A DNA stretch of 21,190 nucleotides from a virus: the IMG/VR virus record IMGVR_UViG_3300037189_011128, positions 1 to 21,190 of that record. The stretch is one strand, 5' to 3'. The notes below the pieces were generated by a model, which ran no database searches, was not told the DNA's origin, and was given only the letters and a program-made list of their open reading frames with translations. Shown one piece after another: positions 3,131 to 20,231 of the stretch. Within the stretch, counting starts at the first letter, position 1; each line of letters begins with the position of its first letter. Both the position numbers and the translations under genes were made by a program.

Positions 3131-3522
3131 GCAAGCCATTCGGATACTCGTATTACCTCGACATGTACAACTGTCGCATCGGTGCAGCCGATGACTTGGA
3201 ACTGCACTACCGCTTTCTTGAGCGGGTCGTAGACAAGATCGGCATGACCCGCATGAGTCAGCCTGTGGTCATGCACGGTCCCACGCAGCAGGGCAAGGAA
3301 CTGTACCCCGACAAGGCGGGCGTGAGTGGTTGGGTTCCTCTCATCGAGAGCGGCATTCAGATTCACTCGATGGAGCCGAAGCGTTTCATCACGCTCGATG
3401 TCTACTCGTGCAACAAGTTTGACAAGAACATCATTCTCGAATACGCTCGGGAATGCTTTGGCTTTGAGCAGCATGAGGAGAACTTCTTCGTGCGTGGCAC
3501 AGGGTACGGCGACATCCAATGA
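3127..3522 (+). CDS. speD: S-adenosylmethionine decarboxylase proenzyme
   Basis: This 131-aa protein resembles prokaryotic AdoMet decarboxylases, which cleave themselves at a Glu-Ser bond to form a pyruvoyl group and then convert AdoMet to decarboxylated AdoMet for spermidine synthesis. The key residues are visible: GVSGWVPLIESGIQIHS with cleavage pair Glu74-Ser75 and His80, then LDVYSC with Cys95. Length is typical of the short bacterial form. The GTG start at 3127 overlaps the previous stop (GTGA) and has an AAGGAG site 8 bases upstream. Similar genes are known in cyanophages and other marine T4-like phages. It overlaps a DNA methyltransferase gene by 4 bases, so it may instead affect AdoMet supply; that is inference. 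Confidence 0.88.
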   Translation: MSKPFGYSYYLDMYNCRIGAADDLELHYRFLERVVDKIGMTRMSQPVVMHGPTQQGKELYPDKAGVSGWVPLIESGIQIHSMEPKRFITLDVYSCNKFDKNIILEYARECFGFEQHEENFFVRGTGYGDIQ

Positions 3523-4628
3523 ACACACACCGCATCATCCTTGGCGACTGCATCGAGGGCATGAAAACTCTGCCTGACGAATGCATCAACACCTGTATCA
3601 CCTCGCCCCCGTACTTCGGGCTGCGTGACTACGGAACCGCAAGTTGGAAGGGCGGCGATCCGAATTGCGATCATGTTGCCGATCCGACCAAGACGAAGAA
3701 GTTCGGCAATCCTGCGTTCAACGAGAATCGTCCGAGCCGTGAACTCACAAAGGTCGAGGGCTACTACTACAAGGATGTCTGTGGTAAGTGCGGTGCAACC
3801 TGTGAGGACTCACAGATCGGTCAGGAGGATACCGTTGAGGGTTATGTCGAGAAGATGGTTGAGGTGTTCCGTGAGGTACGCCGTATCCTGCGTGATGACG
3901 GTACGCTGTGGCTCAACCTTGGTGACTCGTACATGAGCGCAAAGAACTGCGCCCCGCCGCCACAGACTGTTGGTGGTCAGCGTGGTATGCCTTCCGATTT
4001 CATTCCTGCCAACCGCAAGTCACAGACAGGTCTCAAGCAGAAGGACTTGATCGGCATTCCGTGGCGTGTAGCGTTTGCGCTGCAAGCAGACGGGTGGTAT
4101 CTGCGTCAGGATATCATTTGGAACAAACCAAACCCAATGCCCGAGAGCGTTGAGGATCGCTGCACCAAGGCGCACGAGTACATCTTCCTGCTGTCCAAGA
4201 AGCAGAGGTATTACTATGACTTCGAGGCAGTCAAGGAACCCGCTCGTAACTGGGGAACCCGTGACCGCTCCGAGATGCGTAACGGGACTACCGATCCCAA
4301 ACTGAAGCACCACGGGCTACAGGGCAAGGAGTGGGAAGAGAATCCCATGAAGAACAAGCGGTCGGTGTGGACGGTGAACGCCAAGGGCTACAAGGGCGCA
4401 CACTTCGCTGTGTACCCCGAGGAACTCATCAAGCCCTGTGTCCTCGCAGGATGCCCCGCAGGAGGTACGGTGTTTGATCCGTTCACGGGCAGCGGCACGA
4501 CTGCCGTGGTTGCCATGAAGAACGGTCGCAACTACATCGGCACCGAACTGAACCCCGAGTATGTGAAGATCGCAGAGGATCGGATCGCAGAAGAGATCAA
4601 GCCGAGCCTCGTTGATGTCATGGAGTAA
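3519..4628 (+). CDS. DNA methyltransferase, beta class (N6-adenine or N4-cytosine)
   Basis: The 369-aa protein is a complete site-specific DNA methyltransferase. The catalytic motif IV TSPPY is at residues 28-32 and the AdoMet-binding motif I DPFTGSGTT at about 320-328; this order (IV before I) defines the beta class, which modifies the amino group of adenine or cytosine. Between them are well-conserved stretches such as VFREVRRILRDDGTLWLNLG, IPWRVAFALQADGWYLRQDI, NKPNPMPESVEDRC and HEYIFLLSK. A CDH...CGKCGATC segment (about residues 49-95) may bind zinc. The ATG overlaps speD by 4 bases. No restriction enzyme lies nearby, so it is an orphan, most likely shielding phage DNA from host restriction. 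The target site cannot be read from sequence. Confidence 0.93.
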   Translation: MNTHRIILGDCIEGMKTLPDECINTCITSPPYFGLRDYGTASWKGGDPNCDHVADPTKTKKFGNPAFNENRPSRELTKVEGYYYKDVCGKCGATCEDSQIGQEDTVEGYVEKMVEVFREVRRILRDDGTLWLNLGDSYMSAKNCAPPPQTVGGQRGMPSDFIPANRKSQTGLKQKDLIGIPWRVAFALQADGWYLRQDIIWNKPNPMPESVEDRCTKAHEYIFLLSKKQRYYYDFEAVKEPARNWGTRDRSEMRNGTTDPKLKHHGLQGKEWEENPMKNKRSVWTVNAKGYKGAHFAVYPEELIKPCVLAGCPAGGTVFDPFTGSGTTAVVAMKNGRNYIGTELNPEYVKIAEDRIAEEIKPSLVDVME

Positions 4629-5368
4629 TGATGGAATTGGATAAGATCCATCTAGGCGACTGCTTGGAAGTCATGAAGACTTTCCCCGATGACTCGGTGG
4701 ATTTGATTGTCACTTCTCCCCCATACAACAACTGGCGCAACAGAAGAACACAGGCAAACCGAAGTTCGTATTGGAAGCGCACCAACATCGTGTATGAGAA
4801 TCACAACGACAAGCAGTCGGATGATGAGTATGAACAGGGACAGATCGATGTCCTGAATGAGATGCTTCGTGTTCTAAAGCCAACGGGAACGATCTGTTAC
4901 AATCACAAAGATCGCATCTTCAACTTCGAGGTGACAACCCCGATCTCGTGGATAATGAAGTCGAAGGCAGTTTATCGACAGCGTATCACATGGGATCGAT
5001 GTGGGATGCAAGCATACAATCCCGTCAGATTCTACCGTGTAGACGAGGACATCTACATCCTTGGAAAACAGGCAAAGGGATTCAAGTGGAACAAGGATGC
5101 AGCAAAGTACCTGTCTGTATGGAGAATCCCACCAAACAGAAACATCTACGAACACAATGCAACCTTTCCTGAAGAGATAGTGAAGCGATGTGTGAGTGCC
5201 TTCACCGATGTTGGGGATGTTGTTCTTGATCCCTACAACGGAACAGGAACAACAACAAAAGTTGCTTCAGAAATGGCTAGGCATTACATCGGCATAGACA
5301 TATCAGAGAAGTACAACAAGACGGCAAAGGAAAGAGTTCAGCACAACCTAAAAGGAGTCATGGAATGA
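4628..5368 (+). CDS. Second DNA methyltransferase, beta class, acquired-looking
   Basis: This 246-aa enzyme has the same motif order as its neighbour: TSPPY at 29-33 and DPYNGTGTT at 201-209, with EMLRVLKPTGTICYNHKDR and a C-terminal HYIGIDISEKY between and after. It is compact and only distantly similar to the upstream enzyme, so the two probably have different target sites. The start ATG 4628 shares one base with the previous TAA; a second ATG follows at 4631. Base use differs from the neighbours: AGA/AGG arginine codons are frequent (for example in WRNRRTQ, WRIPPNRN and MARHY), A+T is higher, and asparagine/lysine codons are common. That suggests more recent acquisition. No cognate nuclease is visible. 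N6-adenine versus N4-cytosine cannot be settled. Confidence 0.9.
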   Translation: MMELDKIHLGDCLEVMKTFPDDSVDLIVTSPPYNNWRNRRTQANRSSYWKRTNIVYENHNDKQSDDEYEQGQIDVLNEMLRVLKPTGTICYNHKDRIFNFEVTTPISWIMKSKAVYRQRITWDRCGMQAYNPVRFYRVDEDIYILGKQAKGFKWNKDAAKYLSVWRIPPNRNIYEHNATFPEEIVKRCVSAFTDVGDVVLDPYNGTGTTTKVASEMARHYIGIDISEKYNKTAKERVQHNLKGVME

Positions 5369-9194: not shown

Positions 9195-9206
9195 GGAGAT
9201 ATCATG
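9195..9206 (+). promoter_or_regulatory. uvsX ribosome site and start, identical to that of regA
   Basis: GGAGATATCATG at the uvsX start equals the regA start region base for base over 12 positions. Other genes in the window use different sequences. It may be a RegA target; this is inference from T4, where RegA acts at start regions of early messages. Confidence 0.35.
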
Positions 9207-10250
9207 AGTTTCTTGAAGAGCCTAGTGAAGAGCAGCGGCAACGAGTTTGCCCGCATCGTGACTGATGGAACCGAAGCCGATGTGTCGGGATTTGTTGACA
9301 CAGGCTCCTACGCATTCAACGCCCTCGTGTCAGGCACTCTGACGGGCGGCATCGCCAACAACAAGATCCTCGGCATCGCAGGAGAGTCTGCCACGGGCAA
9401 GACTTACTTTGCGCTTGGCATCGCAGGACAGTTCCTTGCCGACCACGAGGACGGTGTGGTTCTCTACTTCGACAGCGAACAGGCTGTGACGAGCGACATG
9501 ATCAAGTCCCGTGGTCTTGATCCGTCCAAGGTCGCCGTGTTCCCTGTTGCCACGGTCGAGAACTTCCGCTTTCAGTTGATTCAGATCCTTGACAACTTCG
9601 GTAAGTTGGACAAGAAGGATCAGAAGCCGATCATGGTGGTGCTTGACTCGCTCGGTATGTTGTCCACCTCGAAGGAGATGAACGACACCGCAGAGGGCAA
9701 GGAAGTCCGTGACATGACCCGTTCACAGGTCATCAAGGGAACCTTCCGTACCGTGACCCTCAAGTTGGGCAAATACAACATCCCGCTGATCGTGACCAAC
9801 CACACCTACGATGTCGTGGGTGCGTATGTGCCGACCAAGGAGATGGGTGGTGGTAGCGGTCTCAAGTACTCCGCTTCGACCATCGTCTACCTGTCCAAGA
9901 AGAAGCACAAGGTCAACGATGAGGTTGTGGGCAACATCATTCATTGCAAGACCTACAAGAGCCGCCTGACCAAGGAGAACCGTCAGGTCGATGTCCTGCT
10001 CAACTACGATACGGGACTCGACCGCTACTACGGTCTCGTGGAACTTGGTCTCGCACAGGGAGTGTTCAAGAAGGTGTCGAACAAGATTCAGTTCCCTGAC
10101 GGCACCTCCGCATTCGAGAGCCATATCAACAAGGATCCGCAGAAGTACTTCACCGAGTCTGTAATCAAGGCTTTGGATGAGGCTGCTGCCAAGGAGTTCA
10201 AGTACGGTGTCGGTGAGATCCCCGATGCCGAAGAGGAGACCGAAGAGTGA
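9204..10250 (+). CDS. uvsX: UvsX RecA-like recombinase
   Basis: The 348-aa protein is a T4-type UvsX strand-exchange ATPase (T4 UvsX is 391 aa). Walker A GESATGKT is at 60-67 and Walker B PIMVVLDSL at about 142-150. A segment around SQVIKGTFRTVTLKLGKYNI followed by PLIVTNHTYD matches the RecA-fold core after the ATPase site. The C-terminus is acidic. UvsX coats single-stranded DNA with the help of UvsY and drives recombination-dependent replication and repair. ATG 9204 has GGAG 6 bases upstream and its own host-type promoter. In T4 the downstream genes are 40 and 41; here a 10.5-kb island separates uvsX from gene 41. Confidence 0.95.
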   Translation: MSFLKSLVKSSGNEFARIVTDGTEADVSGFVDTGSYAFNALVSGTLTGGIANNKILGIAGESATGKTYFALGIAGQFLADHEDGVVLYFDSEQAVTSDMIKSRGLDPSKVAVFPVATVENFRFQLIQILDNFGKLDKKDQKPIMVVLDSLGMLSTSKEMNDTAEGKEVRDMTRSQVIKGTFRTVTLKLGKYNIPLIVTNHTYDVVGAYVPTKEMGGGSGLKYSASTIVYLSKKKHKVNDEVVGNIIHCKTYKSRLTKENRQVDVLLNYDTGLDRYYGLVELGLAQGVFKKVSNKIQFPDGTSAFESHINKDPQKYFTESVIKALDEAAAKEFKYGVGEIPDAEEETEE

Positions 10251-12509: not shown

Positions 12510-13595
12510 ATGTACGACTATCTCATTGTGGGGTCGGGTCTATTCGGCTCCATCTTCGCTCGTCAGATGACTGATAGAGGGGCGAAGTGCCTTGTCATCG
12601 ACAAGAGAAACCATATCGGAGGCAACTGCTATACCAAGGATGTTGGGGGTATTCATGTTCATGAGTACGGACCACACATCTTTCATACGAGCAGCGACCG
12701 TGTGTGGGAATACATGAATCGGTGGACGAAGTTCAATCACTTCGTCTATCGCCCAAAGGTTTCAAACAAGGGACAGGTCTATTCCTTTCCGATCAACCTG
12801 TTCACTCTGTATCAACTGTGGGGCGTGAGCAATCCTGCCGATGCAAAGCGTAAGTTGGACGAGGTCAAGGTAAAGATCGAGAACCCCTCGAACCTTGAGG
12901 AGTGGATCCTGTCACAGGTTGGTGAGGAGATCTATCACAAGTTCGTCTATGGCTACACCAAGAAGCAATGGGGACGAGACCCCAAGGAACTGCCCGCTTC
13001 GATCATCAAGCGTCTGCCCATTCGCCTGACCTTCGATGACAACTACTTCGAGGACAAGTATCAGGGCATCCCTATTGGTGGCTACACCGCCATATTTGAG
13101 AAGTGGCTCGATGGTATTCCTGTCGAGACGGGCGTTGACTATCTCAAAGAAAAGGATCGCTTCGATGCCATGGCAAAGCGTGTGGTCTACACAGGACCAA
13201 TCGATGAGTTCTTTGGCTGTGACCTTGGGAGACTCGAATGGAGAAGCCTACGCTTCGACCATGAGATCCTGACGGGAGACTTTCAAGGCAACGCTGCTTT
13301 CAACTACACGGATGAGTCGGTTCCATACACTCGCATCTGCGAACACAAGCATTTCGAGTTCGGCAAGCAGGAGCATACCGTCATCACCAAGGAGTATCCG
13401 CAGAGTTGGGATCCTTCTCGTGAGAAGTTCTATCCCCTGAATGATGAAGAAAACAATGCTCTCTACGCAAGATACAAGGAGAGGGTTGACAGCAACCGAT
13501 ACATACTTGGTGGTCGTTTGGCAGACTACAAGTACTACGATATGCACCAAGTAGTCGGATCAGCACTCGTGAGATCCGATAAGGAAACATCATAA
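12510..13595 (+). CDS. glf: UDP-galactopyranose mutase
   Basis: The 361-aa flavoprotein matches Glf (bacterial enzymes are about 367-390 aa). It has the FAD-binding GSGLFG at 8-13, HIGGNCYTK at 35-43, the signature GPHIFHT at 54-60, then VYSFPINLFTLYQLWG, YGYTKKQWGRDP, and PIGGYTAIFEKWL. The C-terminal GGRLADYKYYDM is the usual last FAD-binding region. The enzyme converts UDP-galactopyranose to UDP-galactofuranose, the donor for galactofuranose residues in bacterial surface glycans. With the epimerase just upstream this forms a two-step route from UDP-glucose. ATG 12510 has a GAAGG site. Very few phage genomes that I know of carry this gene with its epimerase. Confidence 0.95.
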   Translation: MYDYLIVGSGLFGSIFARQMTDRGAKCLVIDKRNHIGGNCYTKDVGGIHVHEYGPHIFHTSSDRVWEYMNRWTKFNHFVYRPKVSNKGQVYSFPINLFTLYQLWGVSNPADAKRKLDEVKVKIENPSNLEEWILSQVGEEIYHKFVYGYTKKQWGRDPKELPASIIKRLPIRLTFDDNYFEDKYQGIPIGGYTAIFEKWLDGIPVETGVDYLKEKDRFDAMAKRVVYTGPIDEFFGCDLGRLEWRSLRFDHEILTGDFQGNAAFNYTDESVPYTRICEHKHFEFGKQEHTVITKEYPQSWDPSREKFYPLNDEENNALYARYKERVDSNRYILGGRLADYKYYDMHQVVGSALVRSDKETS

Positions 13596-15123: not shown

Positions 15124-15984
15124 ATGAAATCAGATAAGATCATCTTCACTTGCTCCGAACAGTTCAGCCCCTTCTGGAACTTGCAGTCACAGATTTGGAA
15201 GACCAAGATGGGTATCGAGCCTGTCCTCCTGCTATTTGGTAAGAAGGAGAACACGAATGTCTCCGAGGAGTTCGGCAAGGTACATGAGATGGAGACTGAT
15301 AGCAGCGTTCCTGCGATTCTTCAGGTGACCATGTCGAAGTTCATCTTCCCGTCAGTCGAACCCGAGACCACATGGATGATCGGGGACATCGACATGCTCC
15401 CGCTACAGACAAACTACTTCACCAAGCGAATCGAAAGCATTCCGAGTGATGACAATGTATATGCTCATCTGAACTTCTGTGGCATCTCGCAGAGCATGAG
15501 AGTGGATCCAAGAGTGTTCTTTCAGAAGGGCGGTCAGACCACGGGTGGTGTGAACCTACCGGGACATTACCACATTGCCAAGGGTAAGGTATACGGCAAC
15601 CTGTTTGCACAGAATCGAACCATTGTTGATGTTGTTCGTTCTATGGTCGATTCGAAGCGATATGGAATGTTTGATCCTGCCGTACAGAAGTACATCGGGC
15701 TTGACCCGACCATGCACGGTAGCCATTGGTGTGCCGAGGAGGACTACACGAGCGAGATTCTCGCCGTCAAGGCAAGGAACAACGAGATCAACTTCCAAGG
15801 CATATGCTACGACAACCGCAACGAGCGAGTTGACCGTGCTGTGTGGAATCCAAAGACGAGGTCGTATGCATTCGATCCCAATCGTTTGATCGAAGGTCAA
15901 TATGTTGACATCCATTGCCACCGTCCCTATCATGAGCAGGAAGATGCCCTGAAGACCATCCTCAAGATGGCTAACATGATCTGA
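15124..15984 (+). CDS. Glycosyltransferase-like protein, tandem copy 1
   Basis: The 286-aa protein has MKSDKIIFTCSEQFSPFWNL at its start, GIEPVLLLFGKKENT at 30-44, and TWMIGDIDMLPL with GDID at 87-90 as a DxD-type metal site. The end reads YVDIHCHRPYHEQEDALKTI. The next gene codes for a clear relative with the same blocks in the same order, so the pair arose by duplication. The fold is probably GT-A; the family name is not known to me. The start codon follows the previous stop by 3 bases with only a weak ribosome site, so translation is probably coupled. Confidence 0.65.
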   Translation: MKSDKIIFTCSEQFSPFWNLQSQIWKTKMGIEPVLLLFGKKENTNVSEEFGKVHEMETDSSVPAILQVTMSKFIFPSVEPETTWMIGDIDMLPLQTNYFTKRIESIPSDDNVYAHLNFCGISQSMRVDPRVFFQKGGQTTGGVNLPGHYHIAKGKVYGNLFAQNRTIVDVVRSMVDSKRYGMFDPAVQKYIGLDPTMHGSHWCAEEDYTSEILAVKARNNEINFQGICYDNRNERVDRAVWNPKTRSYAFDPNRLIEGQYVDIHCHRPYHEQEDALKTILKMANMI

Positions 15985-15996
15985 TAGAGGTCACCA

Positions 15997-16902
15997 ATGA
16001 AGATCGACAAGATCGTCTTTTCGTCAACTGAACCATACAGCGACTACTGGAATCTGCAAGCAGAGGTTTGGAGCAACATGGGCATCGAGCCTGTGTTGTT
16101 GCTTTGGGGCAAGAAGGAGAACACCAAGGCAACCGAGAAGCATGGGCGCATCGTGGAGATGGAGTATTCTCCCGATGCAATCAAGTCCTTGCAGATGACC
16201 TTGAGCAAGTTCTACTACACGCAGACAGAGCCTGAAGCGACTTGGCTCACGGGAGACATCGACCTGTATCCCCTTCAGCGGAAATGGTTCACCGAAACAG
16301 TCAAGGACATTCCTGATGACTGCTATGCTCACTTGTCCGCTACTGCTCTGACATCCAAGAAGGGCAACATCAGTTGGCACACCCATGGTGGGTTCGTTGG
16401 TGGTGGTCAAGACTTGGTTGCTTACTTCCACGCTGCGAAGGGCAAAGTGTTCAACGATGTCTACAAATTCGATGGTATCTCGCTGACCGACTATGTCAAC
16501 AAGATCGTGGCAACAGGTAAGTACGGCAGACACATTCCTGAAGAGTGCAAGACGATGTCCCCAAAGGAGATTGCCGCTTTCACAGGAAGCCTGTCCAAGG
16601 ATCACACGAATCAGCCATATTGGTGTGCAGACGAAAACTACACATCAGATGTCTTGTGGGAGGCTGCAAAGAACGGTTTGGTCAAGTGGAAGGGTGTGTT
16701 CTATGACTTGATCAATTGGGAAAACCCATATCAATCGAACCGCATCGACCGCCACTTTTGGCACGGCGGAAACTACCAAGGCGTTGACTTGGCTCGATTG
16801 AAGAACAATGGATACACAGACATCCATTGCTCCACCCCATTTGCGCCACAGGAAAACGATCTGACCGACATTCTCCGTTTGGCAGGGATGATCAAGCGAT
16901 GA
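15997..16902 (+). CDS. Glycosyltransferase-like protein, tandem copy 2
   Basis: The 301-aa paralogue of the preceding protein shares KIDKIVFSSTEPYSDYWNLQ, GIEPVLLLWGKKENT, TWLTGDIDLYPL (GDID at 86-89), YWCADENYTSDVL (versus HWCAEEDYTSEIL in copy 1) and YTDIHCSTPFAPQENDLTDI. By eye about a third or more of residues match. An extra segment at roughly residues 180-200 explains the length difference. The two copies have diverged enough to have different substrates. ATG 15997 is preceded by AGAGGT. Family function is inferred from the DxD site and context only. Confidence 0.65.
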   Translation: MKIDKIVFSSTEPYSDYWNLQAEVWSNMGIEPVLLLWGKKENTKATEKHGRIVEMEYSPDAIKSLQMTLSKFYYTQTEPEATWLTGDIDLYPLQRKWFTETVKDIPDDCYAHLSATALTSKKGNISWHTHGGFVGGGQDLVAYFHAAKGKVFNDVYKFDGISLTDYVNKIVATGKYGRHIPEECKTMSPKEIAAFTGSLSKDHTNQPYWCADENYTSDVLWEAAKNGLVKWKGVFYDLINWENPYQSNRIDRHFWHGGNYQGVDLARLKNNGYTDIHCSTPFAPQENDLTDILRLAGMIKR

Positions 16903-18296
16903 ATCTGATTTGCGTATCTGGCAGTTCGGGTGTGGGCAAGACCACACTCACGAAGTTGATCGAGAGTGTCATTGGCTCCGACAACGCTGTCTGCTTGAGT
17001 GGTGATGATCTCCATCTTTGGGAACGCAACGATCCCATGTGGAACACATACACACACCTCAACCCAAAGGCTAACGATCTCGAAACAGGTCATGCCCACA
17101 TCGATGCATTGAAGAGCGGTGAGGCGATCACTCGTAGGCACTACAATCACGACACAGGCAAGTTCGATCCTCCAATCACCATCGAACCAAAGCCTTATGT
17201 CATTTACGAGGGTCTCCATGCCCTGTATTACGCCGATACATCTGCCATCTGTATCTTTGTTGACACGGATGATGCCCTGAAGACCGAGTGGAAGGTCAAA
17301 CGGGACACCAAGAAGCGTGGCTACACCGAGTCACAGGTGATGGACACCATGCGGCGCAGGAAGCAGGACGAGGATCTGTACATCACTCCACAGCGTAACT
17401 CCGCAGACATCGTGGTCAAGTTCACCAAGGATAGAGGCGGCTCCATCTCGTTGGAGTATGTCAACATCACCAACAAGGGTTGGGATCTCATGTCCAAGGT
17501 AAAGGATTTCTATGATTCCCTGAACGAGTTCATGGGCATCTGCAAGTCCCTCTCGCTCGATCCCTCGCTCACGCAGGGGCGTGGGGGCAATGTGTCCGTG
17601 AAGTCAAAGAGTGGGTTGATCGTCAAGGCATCGGGAGCAAAGATGGCTGACATCAATCTGCACCACGGATTCTGTGTGTGCCGTACTGATGGCTATATGC
17701 CCATGTTCACCACCGAGGAAGAGTACAACGACTACATTGGTGGATCGAAGAAGGTTGGTGTCGGTAGACCTTCGATGGAGACGGGCTTCCATGTCGCCAT
17801 GAAGGATCGAGTCATTGTTCACACCCATCCCATCCATCTGAATGCTCTCCTTTGCAGCAAGGAGGCACGGGCGATTCTCAAGGGACTCTTCCAAGACCTG
17901 TCATATGAATTCGTAGAGTACACCGTGCCTGGTATGGAACTCGTGAACCGCATTCGTGATAGCAAGGGCATCCTGTTCCTAGAGAACCATGGACTCATCG
18001 TCGGTGCAGATACCGCAGAGGAAGCCATGAGCATCACCGAGGAGATCAACAACAAGTGCAAGCGATGGCTAGGTAATCATGTAGAGTCTTTCGTGGACTT
18101 CGATGAGAACGATACTGAAACGAATCTCCCGCTGTTCCCCGATGCAGCCGTGCTGCCCGAAGAGATGTCTCCAACCAACAACTACATACTACGGTTGATG
18201 ACGGGGGCTTGCCTGACTCCGAAGTTCCTTGACGAGTCGCAAGTCAAGCACCTCAATGACATGACATCCGAGAAATACAGGAAGGCTATACCATGA
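16899..18296 (+). CDS. Fusion: PRK/uridine-kinase-like kinase + class II aldolase
   Basis: The 465-aa protein joins two enzymes. Residues 1 to about 190 are a P-loop kinase of the phosphoribulokinase/uridine kinase type: Walker A GSSGVGKT at 8-15, LSGDDLHLWE at 33-42, HYNHDTGKFDPP at 81-92 and IYEGLHALY at 102-110. Residues about 205-450 are a class II aldolase/adducin domain: GGNVSVK at 229-235, KASGAKM, PSMET with Glu294, HTHPIHLN with zinc ligands His308 and His310, and ENHGL with His364. Zinc ligands and nucleotide site are intact, so both halves should be active. Such a fusion could phosphorylate a small alcohol or sugar and cleave, epimerise or dehydrate a phosphosugar. ATG 16899 overlaps the previous stop. 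It is followed by a nucleotidyltransferase, suggesting a route to an activated compound. Exact substrates unknown. Confidence 0.88.
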   Translation: MNLICVSGSSGVGKTTLTKLIESVIGSDNAVCLSGDDLHLWERNDPMWNTYTHLNPKANDLETGHAHIDALKSGEAITRRHYNHDTGKFDPPITIEPKPYVIYEGLHALYYADTSAICIFVDTDDALKTEWKVKRDTKKRGYTESQVMDTMRRRKQDEDLYITPQRNSADIVVKFTKDRGGSISLEYVNITNKGWDLMSKVKDFYDSLNEFMGICKSLSLDPSLTQGRGGNVSVKSKSGLIVKASGAKMADINLHHGFCVCRTDGYMPMFTTEEEYNDYIGGSKKVGVGRPSMETGFHVAMKDRVIVHTHPIHLNALLCSKEARAILKGLFQDLSYEFVEYTVPGMELVNRIRDSKGILFLENHGLIVGADTAEEAMSITEEINNKCKRWLGNHVESFVDFDENDTETNLPLFPDAAVLPEEMSPTNNYILRLMTGACLTPKFLDESQVKHLNDMTSEKYRKAIP

Positions 18297-19120
18297 AGAT
18301 CGTGATTCCGATGGCAGGGACGGGCAATCGTTTCGTTGAGAAGGGTTACGCTGACCCCAAGCCGCTCATCAAGGTGAACGGCAAGCGCATCATCGAATAC
18401 ATCCTAGACATGTTCGACCGCAAGAAGGACGAGTTCGTCTTCATCTGCAATGATGTGCATTTGAAGACCACCGACATGGAGAAGATCCTCAAGGAACTCG
18501 TGCCGAATGCCAAGATCGTCTCGATGCCGCAGCACAAGTTGGGTCCGGTCTATACGGTCAAGACTGTCTATGACTTGATCGAAGACAACGAGGAGGTCAT
18601 CATCTCCTACTGCGACAACCCGCACCTGTGGGATCGCAAGGACTTCGAGAAGGCGATGAAGAAGGGCAAGTTCGATGGATGCGTCCTCACGCACACGGGC
18701 TTCCACCCACACACGCTGGCGCACACGAAGATGGCGTTCGTCAAGGGTGAGAACGGTGTCCTTGAGGAGATCAAGGAGAAGGCTTGCTACACGGACAACC
18801 CGCTGAATGAGCATGCGTCCACGGGCGTGTACTACTTCAAGAAGGGTTCGTACATCAAGAAGTACTTTGAGCAAGCCATGAAGGAAAACATTCAGTACAA
18901 CGGTGAGTACTATGTGACACTCGTGTACAACCTTCTTGTGAAGGATGGTCTCAAGGTCGGTTACTACGATACTCCGTTCGTCACCGTCTTCGGCACCCCC
19001 GAGGAGGTCGAGAACTTCGAGTCTTGGGCAAAGATCCTCAAGGGTGGGCAAGCCTCGCACCCGCTCCATGCAGCGGCTTGCTTCGAGTACTGGAGCGAAT
19101 ACCACAAGTTGACATCATGA
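18293..19120 (+). CDS. Sugar-phosphate nucleotidyltransferase-like protein
   Basis: The 275-aa protein has the N-terminal signature of NTP-transferases: IPMAGTGNRF at 5-14, followed by YADPKPLIKVNGKRIIEYIL, with Lys23 in the place of the catalytic lysine. VIISYCDNPHLWD at about 103-115 stands where the family has its metal-binding Asp. Such enzymes join a phosphorylated sugar or alcohol to a nucleotide, releasing pyrophosphate. The ATG overlaps the kinase-aldolase stop (ATGA), so its substrate may well be that enzyme's product. The C-terminal half is shorter than in dTDP-glucose synthases and has no left-handed beta-helix, so it is a single-domain enzyme. The nucleotide (CTP, UTP or other) is not clear. 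Confidence 0.85.
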   Translation: MKIVIPMAGTGNRFVEKGYADPKPLIKVNGKRIIEYILDMFDRKKDEFVFICNDVHLKTTDMEKILKELVPNAKIVSMPQHKLGPVYTVKTVYDLIEDNEEVIISYCDNPHLWDRKDFEKAMKKGKFDGCVLTHTGFHPHTLAHTKMAFVKGENGVLEEIKEKACYTDNPLNEHASTGVYYFKKGSYIKKYFEQAMKENIQYNGEYYVTLVYNLLVKDGLKVGYYDTPFVTVFGTPEEVENFESWAKILKGGQASHPLHAAACFEYWSEYHKLTS

Positions 19121-19590
19121 TCTACATTTCTCACCGTGGCAATCTGAACGGGATCAATCACTCCCGTGAGAACTCGCCAACCTATATCGATGAGTGCATC
19201 AACAAGGGGTTTCATTGCGAGATCGATCTTCGCATGAAGGACGGCGTTCCTCATTTGGGGCACGACACGGCAGACTACCCCGTCACGATCTCGTGGCTAC
19301 AGGATCGTTGCATGTGGCTGTGGATCCATGTCAAGGAGTACGAGGCTCTGATGTGGCTGATGAAGACCATGCCGTGGGCGAACTACTTCTGCCATGAGTC
19401 CGATAAGTACACCCTCGTTAGCAATGGTATGGTTTGGTGTCACGACCTGACAAACGAAATGAATGCAAACTGTGTGATCCCGCTTTTGTCGAAGGAATCT
19501 GTCGATTCCTATGGACAGACGGGCTTCGGTGCGGTATGCTCCGACTTCATCTACGACTGCGTAGCCAAGTTCAACAAGGACAATTCATGA
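19117..19590 (+). CDS. Short GDPD-like phosphodiesterase
   Basis: The 157-aa protein starts MIYISHRGN with the His6-Arg7-Gly8 motif of glycerophosphodiester phosphodiesterases, and continues with CEIDLRMKDGVPHLGHD (residues 34-50), giving the Glu35, Asp37 and His49 expected at the metal and catalytic site. The family normally has about 240-300 residues in a TIM barrel; this one is much shorter, so it is a minimal or C-terminally reduced version. It begins inside the stop of the nucleotidyltransferase (ATGA) and ends in the start of the next gene. In context it may hydrolyse a phosphodiester in a glycan or its nucleotide-activated precursor. No signal peptide, so cytoplasmic. Confidence 0.75.
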   Translation: MIYISHRGNLNGINHSRENSPTYIDECINKGFHCEIDLRMKDGVPHLGHDTADYPVTISWLQDRCMWLWIHVKEYEALMWLMKTMPWANYFCHESDKYTLVSNGMVWCHDLTNEMNANCVIPLLSKESVDSYGQTGFGAVCSDFIYDCVAKFNKDNS

Positions 19591-20231
19591 GCAATGTGAA
19601 ACTCACCATCGGCATCCCAACGATTCCGAATCGAAACCGCAGATACCTCGAACCCCTGTTCTCCAAACTCATGGGACAGGTCGGCAACGAAAAGGATGTT
19701 GAGATCATCGCCCTGATGGACAACAAGATGATGTCTATCGGACGCAAGAAGACCCTGCTCTTCAGCATGGCTAGCGGCAAGTATGCATGCCTGATTGACG
19801 ATGATGACGATGTGACCGATGACTTCGTGGCTACACTTCGTTCCGTGATCAACGATCAGTTGGATGTCGATGTCATTTGCTATGATCAGGAAGCGGACAT
19901 CAACGGGAAGAAGTGGCTCGTCAAGTCCAACCTGAACCACAATCGCAAGCATCCGTTTGATCAGTTGCAAGTCGATCAGCATGGCAACCCTGTGCCCTGC
20001 AAGCGTCCCCCGTGGCAATGGTGTGCTTGGAAGACCTCGTTCATCAAGAACATCCCGTTCGGTGACTCGAACTGGGCAGAGGACGCAGCGTTCACCCTAG
20101 CCGCCGTAGAAGCAGCCAAGAGCCAACTCGTCCTCGACAAGGTGCTATGCAAGTACCGCTACTCACCTTCCGTGTCCGAGGCTCCGCAGCAGAACATTAC
20201 ACCCAATCAAATGAATCGAGTCCAACTCTAA
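19587..20231 (+). CDS. Glycosyltransferase family 2-like protein
   Basis: The 214-aa protein reads LTIGIPTIPNRNRRYLEPLF at its start, EIIALMDNKMMSIGRKKTLL, and a metal site LIDDDDD at 69-75. SNWAEDAAFTLAAVEAAK near the end contains the usual ED catalytic region. Block order and spacing match the 199-aa protein at 10998, so the two are paralogues. ATG 19587 overlaps the GDPD-like gene stop (ATGA). The PPWQWCAWKTSFIKNIPFG segment is typical of GT2-like phage and bacterial transferases. Donor and acceptor unknown. Confidence 0.8.
   Translation: MSNVKLTIGIPTIPNRNRRYLEPLFSKLMGQVGNEKDVEIIALMDNKMMSIGRKKTLLFSMASGKYACLIDDDDDVTDDFVATLRSVINDQLDVDVICYDQEADINGKKWLVKSNLNHNRKHPFDQLQVDQHGNPVPCKRPPWQWCAWKTSFIKNIPFGDSNWAEDAAFTLAAVEAAKSQLVLDKVLCKYRYSPSVSEAPQQNITPNQMNRVQL

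Follow-up and report, generated by a model that had tools for sequence, protein, structure and literature searches.

A phosphoribulokinase-like kinase fused to a class II aldolase in phage glycan gene clusters: a possible glycan-precursor pathway with bacterial counterparts

Several described systems resemble parts of the gene set reported here. In haloarchaea, a HAD phosphatase dephosphorylates ribulose-1,5-bisphosphate (RuBP) to ribulose-1-phosphate (Ru1P), which a FucA-type aldolase splits into dihydroxyacetone phosphate (DHAP) and glycolaldehyde (PMC9700705). The kinase-isomerase-aldolase clusters for 5-deoxyribose disposal (PMC6079011) and the Campylobacter capsule donor pathways (PMC11924219) have also been characterized, and phosphoribulokinase (PRK) has been mentioned, without sequence context, in large marine phages (PMC10732071). 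The individual enzyme families and phage glycan clusters are already known. In this study, we analyzed the virus record IMGVR_UViG_3300037189_011128 (positions 1-21,190; 21,190 bases, hereafter the window), in which one open reading frame (ORF) encodes a PRK-type kinase joined to a class II aldolase, followed by a sugar-phosphate nucleotidyltransferase (NTase) and a small protein with the fold of glycerophosphodiester phosphodiesterases (GDPD). With this set the 5-deoxyribose clusters share the logic of a kinase and a class II aldolase acting via a ketose-1-phosphate; they differ in having a kinase of another family and an isomerase, in lacking NTase and GDPD, and in lying outside glycan clusters (PMC6079011). 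The Campylobacter pathways, such as that for cytidine diphosphate (CDP)-glycerol in HS:1, share an NTase that makes a surface-polysaccharide donor, and were rejected as a match because no PRK-like kinase or class II aldolase appears in the descriptions consulted (PMC11924219).

The fusion protein (465 aa) is read on the plus strand from an ATG at 16899 (16899..18296), and its assignment is based on Pfam, an AlphaFold2 model, fold matches and conservation in 25 homologues. It is followed on the same strand by the NTase (275 aa, 18293..19120; NTP_transf_3 in Pfam, phrog_3980, nearest PDB entry 4evw) and by the mini-GDPD (157 aa, 19117..19590; phrog_34507, AlphaFold2 model, invariant residues). 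Four consecutive ATGA stop/start overlaps connect the fusion (16899), the NTase (18293), the GDPD (19117) and a glycosyltransferase gene (19587). An initial reading of the letters alone (the sequence-only reading) had stated that the two genes after the fusion start inside their neighbours' stop codons, and the overlaps at 18293 and 19117 bear this out.

A profile search of IMG/VR retrieved 46 related loci. Kinase and aldolase were encoded in one ORF in 40 of them, representing 22 clusters at 90% identity (one member, L001, is the window's own sequence), and this architecture was unchanged down to about 36% identity. Such recurrence in 22 clusters indicates that the fusion is neither a chance event nor a local frame error. 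In the 39 loci with more than 1.5 kb downstream, which could be tested for neighbours, both the NTase and the GDPD were near the fusion without exception; a HAD protein of about 100 aa, homologous to SSM2_207 of cyanophage S-SM2, was present in 28 and a GT61 glycosyltransferase in six. The ratio of nonsynonymous to synonymous substitution rates with respect to locus L002 (Nei-Gojobori) was 0.13 for the kinase, 0.10 for the aldolase, 0.04 for the NTase and 0.08 for the GDPD; both halves of the fusion are under purifying selection. Neither the fusion nor a close relative of its kinase was found among 50,697 phage records.

The kinase half (aa 3-176, 16905-17426, plus strand) matched PRK (PF00485) with an E-value of 5e-37 and 128 bits against a cut-off of 22. 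It carries the P-loop GSSGVGKT, whose lysine was invariant in the 25 homologues, and the invariant positions of the two halves together comprised DD-H-WER, YNH, EGLH, K-RD-R, GGN, SG, PS-E, H-H-P and HG (25 sequences). The whole fusion was modelled by AlphaFold2 with the 25 homologues at a predicted local distance difference test score (pLDDT) of 90.9 and a predicted template modelling score of 0.89. Both sequence and structure comparison placed the kinase half nearest to PRKs, the model matching the cyanobacteria-specific PRK 9qkp with Z 24.2 and a root-mean-square deviation (rmsd) of 1.9 over 196 aligned residues; with this protein and 9qko in particular it shares the fold and the core motifs of the catalytic domain, at about 35% identity. 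It departs from PRK in being joined to an aldolase, in carrying a WER...W...THL motif like that of kinases from bacterial glycan clusters, and in having no PRK C-terminal region, given that PRK sequence matches stop near aa 180 and the aldolase starts near aa 200. The score with PRK07429 (NCBIfam), 186.2 bits, lies below the curated cut-off of 236. Judged by the features tested, this predicted kinase is not a phosphoribulokinase equivalog. The sequence-only reading had called the domain PRK/uridine-kinase-like; it was right about an intact PRK-type domain with GSSGVGKT, and the second half of the label must be dropped, since a uridine kinase identity was rejected (TIGR00235, 65.3 bits against a cut-off of 220.3) and PRK profiles and PRK structures score higher.

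The aldolase half (aa 212-390, 17532-18068, plus strand) matched Aldolase_II (PF00596) with an E-value of 2e-17, and the C-terminal tail that follows it is also conserved. Its GGN, PSxE, HxHP and NHG motifs were conserved in the 25 homologues, with the presumed zinc ligands H308, H310 and H364 invariant and aligned with those of solved aldolases. As the PSxE, HxH and HG positions coincide with those of solved aldolases, this half should bind zinc and keep the catalytic Glu. Its model matched 3m4r (Z 20.4, rmsd 2.5, 187 aligned) and the FucA structure 2opi (Z 18.5, rmsd 2.6, 176 aligned), so that the intact class II aldolase originally read from the letters was recovered in family match, fold and motifs alike. 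In AraD-type 4-epimerases an Asp replaces the catalytic Glu of FucA. Glu 294 was invariant in the 25 homologues and aligned with the FucA Glu in an alignment that did not include AraD itself; retention of this residue would favour an aldolase over an AraD-type epimerase, the other function that had been suggested for the domain. The fold, the three presumed zinc histidines, the Glu and the GGN and PSxE motifs are held in common with FucA and RhaD. The aldolase half is unlike them in being part of a fusion and in scoring below all curated equivalog cut-offs, and neither FucA nor RhaD as curated was accepted as its identity: fucA gave 18.8 bits (cut-off 400) and RhaD_aldol-ADH, a longer bifunctional model, 40.7 bits (cut-off 568). 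With the Ru1P aldolase model NF053831 (cut-off 300), the fusion scored 25.7 bits and the aldolase of S-SM2 49.7 bits. Two further observations were made on aldolase genes. A fusion at L012:8001-9380 is near-identical to that of L008 minus nine residues that include the PSME motif, and may be an inactive variant or an assembly artefact. In Synechococcus phage S-SCSM2R (L104:7998-8663) a stand-alone class II aldolase lies outside any glycan cluster, near nrdA and a DNA primase gene.

Regarding the two following genes, the only annotation of the PDB entry nearest to the NTase, 4evw, is nucleoside-diphosphate-sugar pyrophosphorylase, and among the NCBIfam families searched the protein resembles sugar-1-phosphate NTases and not the glycerol-phosphate cytidylyltransferase model. 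The 157-aa protein showed no Pfam or NCBIfam match. Its AlphaFold2 model (pLDDT 96.1) places it in the GDPD-superfamily fold: the top three structure matches were all GDPDs (Z 11.4-11.7), the best being 7e0v (Z 11.7, rmsd 3.2, 151 aligned), and it is 60-100 residues shorter than these. The residues H6, R7, E35, D37 and H49 (HR, ExD, H), which we take to be the catalytic and metal residues of GDPDs, were invariant in 29 sequences.

The same activities were found, differently arranged, in bacteria. Scanning the genome collection for peptide patterns taken from the fusion gave no cellular relative, but a search with the fusion profile against 694 genomes (two phyla) did find relatives, with 10 strong kinase matches. 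Six of these, from Pseudomonadota and Bacteroidota (L106-L109, L113 and L114), are proteins of about 700 aa consisting of a polytopic membrane half followed by a PRK-like kinase. No description of such proteins was found, nor any further one within the class of genome G649; the membrane half of one of them gave a weak ALG3 match, below the cut-off. The motif DDxHxW(E/D)R...W...THLxPxAN is common to the phage kinases and to these six bacterial kinases and is absent from the ordinary PRKs sampled. All six genomes encode a tandem NTase and a class II aldolase. In five, these two genes share a stretch of about 10 kb with those for the kinase protein, a GDPD-like protein of about 196 aa, a GT2 glycosyltransferase and a HAD, whereas G075, the sixth, has its NTase and aldolase genes on other contigs. 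The bacterial clusters (L116-L120) are like the window in having a kinase relative (36-42% identity), an NTase (38-50%), a class II aldolase and a GDPD-like protein, and like the fusion loci in having a HAD. They are unlike the window in that the kinase is fused to the membrane half, the NTase is in tandem and the GDPD-like protein, which had no Pfam match, belongs to another subfamily; unlike the phage loci, they have a larger HAD, a dedicated GT2 and in some cases a GtrA-like protein. The two bacterial HADs tested matched best the RuBP 5-phosphatase model NF053830 (181 and 184 bits, cut-off 330), and the phage HAD had no match in NCBIfam, NF053830 included. A match in Planctomycetota (L121) was discarded as an ordinary PRK adjoining a RuBisCO-like gene.

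Split and rearranged versions of the set occur in phages as well. In L101, GT61, kinase, methyltransferase, aldolase, HAD, GDPD and tandem NTase are separate genes; in L083 and L084 the aldolase stands apart and the kinase has a different domain as its fusion partner; and in L067, L069-L071, L073 and L074 a second NTase domain and a GT61 follow as separate genes. The cyanophages S-SM2 (SSM2_204-208) and Bellamy (209-213) have overlapping genes for a tandem NTase, a GT61, a class II aldolase, a small HAD and a mini-GDPD. Their aldolase, mini-GDPD and NTase belong to the same families as those of the window, their small HAD is of the family present in 28 of the 39 fusion loci, and the bacterial tandem NTase shares 39-48% identity with its S-SM2 counterpart across more than 520 aa. 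The differences from the window are a two-domain NTase, a GT61 in between, a stand-alone aldolase and the lack of a kinase, no PRK-like kinase having been found in either genome. Rearranged gene sets that keep the same partners are as expected of enzymes of one pathway. In cyanophage-type clusters, distant relatives of the NTase from the same broad group are fused to RpiB (L018:7989-9146 and L040:8530-9687) or, in S-SKS1 (SWZG_00042, L102:6001-7428), to 3,4-dihydroxy-2-butanone-4-phosphate (DHBP) synthase (RibB). Both RpiB and RibB act on ribulose-5-phosphate (Ru5P).

In addition, S-SM2 genes labelled 'phosphoheptose isomerase' (L014:11306-11617 and 12947-13276) resemble small HAD phosphatases, the first one matching HAD_PNKP, and have relatives in 374 phage records, many of them T4-like. 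A heptose pathway based on such labels in cyanophage records was discarded, as the tested proteins of about 100 aa match HAD families and no isomerase. Two contigs filed under Planctomycetaceae and Crocinitomicaceae metagenome-assembled genomes (L022 and L040) carry cyanophage-type gene runs, in which identity with S-SM2 and Bellamy genes reaches 91% and 88%, and are probably viral DNA binned with bacteria.

Sequence analysis or prediction shows which domains and catalytic residues the proteins carry, how they fold, how their genes are coupled, that they are under purifying selection and that they co-occur in phages and bacteria; every substrate, the order and direction of the reactions, what is made and what becomes of it, and what the GDPD does are our inference. 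The presence of the same enzyme set in bacterial glycan clusters suggests that it is probably one pathway making a sugar building block, and we regard it as likely that kinase, aldolase, NTase and GDPD serve a single glycan-donor pathway. Our preferred reading, to which we assign a probability of about 50%, is that the window carries the phage form of a conserved pathway for glycan precursors, with its first two activities joined in one polypeptide. The PRK-type half would add a phosphate at C1 of a ketose or of a ketose phosphate, the likeliest reaction being that of D-ribulose-5-phosphate to the 1,5-bisphosphate. A HAD, phage-encoded in 28 of the 39 loci and otherwise presumably supplied by the host, would strip the distal phosphate to leave a ketose-1-phosphate, which the zinc aldolase half might exchange with DHAP and a small aldehyde, setting the carbon skeleton or the stereochemistry. 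The NTase would then activate the phosphorylated product as a nucleoside diphosphate (NDP) derivative, the mini-GDPD would cut a phosphodiester, supplying or trimming the unit, and the neighbouring glycosyltransferases would attach the unit to a surface glycan.

Three clues indicate a ribulose-phosphate pool: a kinase of PRK type, bacterial HADs that resemble RuBP phosphatase, and cyanophage NTases fused to RpiB or RibB. Taken with the haloarchaeal conversion of RuBP through Ru1P to DHAP and glycolaldehyde, they led to the proposed order of kinase, HAD and aldolase acting on a ketose-1-phosphate. The closest described parallel to the later steps is the haloarchaeal phosphatase with its FucA-type Ru1P aldolase. 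That non-carboxylating pentose bisphosphate pathway is like the proposal in its use of RuBP, a HAD phosphatase and a FucA-type aldolase on a ketose-1-phosphate; it is unlike it in obtaining RuBP by a ribose-1-phosphate kinase and an isomerase of ribose-1,5-bisphosphate (R15P), in being degradative and in lacking an NTase and a GDPD (PMC9700705). The haloarchaeal pathway as such was rejected, the scores with its Ru1P aldolase and RuBP 5-phosphatase being far below the curated cut-offs, and the present set may work like parts of it. Ru5P is the leading candidate substrate of the kinase half, and the specific chain from Ru5P through RuBP to Ru1P is possible but rather doubtful. More tentative than the preferred reading, and somewhat less so than this chain, is an undescribed nucleotide-sugar pathway of phages and bacteria that would run outside carbon fixation via an RuBP-like ketose-1,5-bisphosphate and a ketose-1-phosphate, would yield a novel short ketose or polyol, NDP-activated and destined for surface glycans, and would have been compressed in phages by fusion.

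It must be noted that several observations weigh against the preferred reading. The kinase half is without the C-terminal region found in true PRKs, and at the positions of its W-E-R...W...THL motif the canonical PRKs sampled carry other residues, so that it may act on a substrate other than Ru5P. The aldolase scores far below the curated Ru1P aldolase cut-off, as do the bacterial HADs with respect to that for RuBP phosphatase. The phage HAD belongs to a different family, of about 100 aa, from the bacterial one, and no HAD was seen nearby in 11 of the 39 loci, the window included. Bacterial and phage GDPD-like proteins are alike at motif level only, and it is not obvious where the GDPD step would fit in the proposed chemistry.

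Among the alternatives, the one that survives best, although we consider it unlikely, is that the aldolase acts first, condensing DHAP with a small aldehyde to a ketose-1-phosphate, whose far end would be phosphorylated by the kinase before the HAD takes off the phosphate at C1 and the NTase activates the far-end phosphate to form an NDP-ketose or NDP-alditol. The same gene set fits this order, and PRK-type kinases accept sugar phosphates and yield bisphosphates. Class II aldolases such as Hx-FucA do condense DHAP with several aldehydes (PMC9700705). However, PRK chemistry takes place at C1, which in this order is already phosphorylated, and the bacterial HADs resemble a 5-phosphatase, not a 1-phosphatase. 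Less probable again is a glycerol-phosphate route, in which the GDPD would free sn-glycerol-3-phosphate, kinase and aldolase would feed DHAP, and the NTase would make a CDP-glycerol-like three-carbon donor for phosphoglycerol decoration, as in the Campylobacter HS:1 capsule (PMC11924219). The GDPD fold with its conserved catalytic residues, an aldolase family that yields DHAP and the existence of CDP-glycerol donors for surface glycans are all consistent with it, but both DHAP and glycerol-3-phosphate belong to ordinary metabolism and call for no kinase and aldolase of their own, and the likeness of the NTase to sugar-1-phosphate enzymes, instead of the glycerol-phosphate cytidylyltransferase model searched, points elsewhere.

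Salvage or catabolism, where kinase and aldolase would split a pentulose into DHAP and an aldehyde for host metabolism during infection, as in the DHAP shunt or the haloarchaeal pathway, with NTase and GDPD as separate neighbours, appears improbable. A kinase paired with a class II aldolase is indeed typical of the routes for 5-deoxyribose, fucose and rhamnose (PMC6079011) and is also seen in the haloarchaeal pathway (PMC9700705), but NTase and GDPD adjoin the fusion in 39 of 39 loci, the set recurs in bacterial glycan clusters, and neither a transporter nor a phosphorylase was seen alongside. Finally, an artefact in which a sequencing or assembly error joined two genes, the refutation named beforehand, can be dismissed as having a negligible probability, since the single ORF recurs across 22 clusters with both halves under purifying selection, and the separate kinase and aldolase genes of L101, which might seem to favour it, are a real alternative arrangement.

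The surroundings of the set agree with a glycan function. A long run of glycan genes spans from a recA-like gene (9204-10250) to the right end of the window (ORFs, Pfam and PHROG), and before the genes discussed above it contains glycosyltransferase-like genes, an epimerase-like gene and a UDP-galactopyranose mutase gene (Pfam and PHROG). Downstream, the GT2-like glycosyltransferase (19587..20231, plus strand) is translationally coupled through its ATGA at 19587, with a PHROG glycosyltransferase match and a weak Pfam match. Upstream on the same strand, a glycosyltransferase-like protein without family match in Pfam or PHROG (15997..16902), whose stop overlaps the start of the fusion, is preceded by a paralogue (15124..15984); this tandem pair (15124-16902), neither member of which has a family match, is retained upstream of the fusion in many loci and probably encodes glycosyltransferases. 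The suggestion of the sequence-only reading that the coupled genes jointly lead to an unusual nucleotide-activated sugar or polyol phosphate remains the leading one, given the coupling in 39 of 39 loci, the glycan neighbours (glycosyltransferases and UDP-galactopyranose mutase) and the same set in bacterial clusters; its list of four enzymes was incomplete, as a HAD phosphatase is a further regular member. Elsewhere in the window, two adjoining ORFs (3519-5368) upstream of the DNA polymerase gene resemble DNA methyltransferases by reading alone. A defence system was discarded, as PADLOC gave no match. With respect to the host, the DNA polymerase is about 50% identical to polymerases of Synechococcus T4-like phages, and psbA, which bears on a cyanophage host, was absent from 18 related viral records, which may be fragments.

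No description of a pathway with this enzyme set was found in the literature searched, which mostly did not include subscription papers. The earlier remark that no described phage pathway with this set was known stands to that extent, although the set is not restricted to phages and bacteria pair the kinase with another partner. The kinase-aldolase fusion and the set common to phages and bacteria were likewise not found in that literature and appear to be new. Unrelated activities travel together near glycosyltransferases in phage contigs and, differently arranged, in two bacterial phyla, which is strong genomic evidence for a seemingly undescribed glycan building block. If the preferred reading is true, the presence of a PRK-like kinase outside carbon fixation would have an explanation, several cyanophage genes that are unassigned or misnamed could be named more easily, and the fusion would offer assays a single bifunctional enzyme as a starting point.

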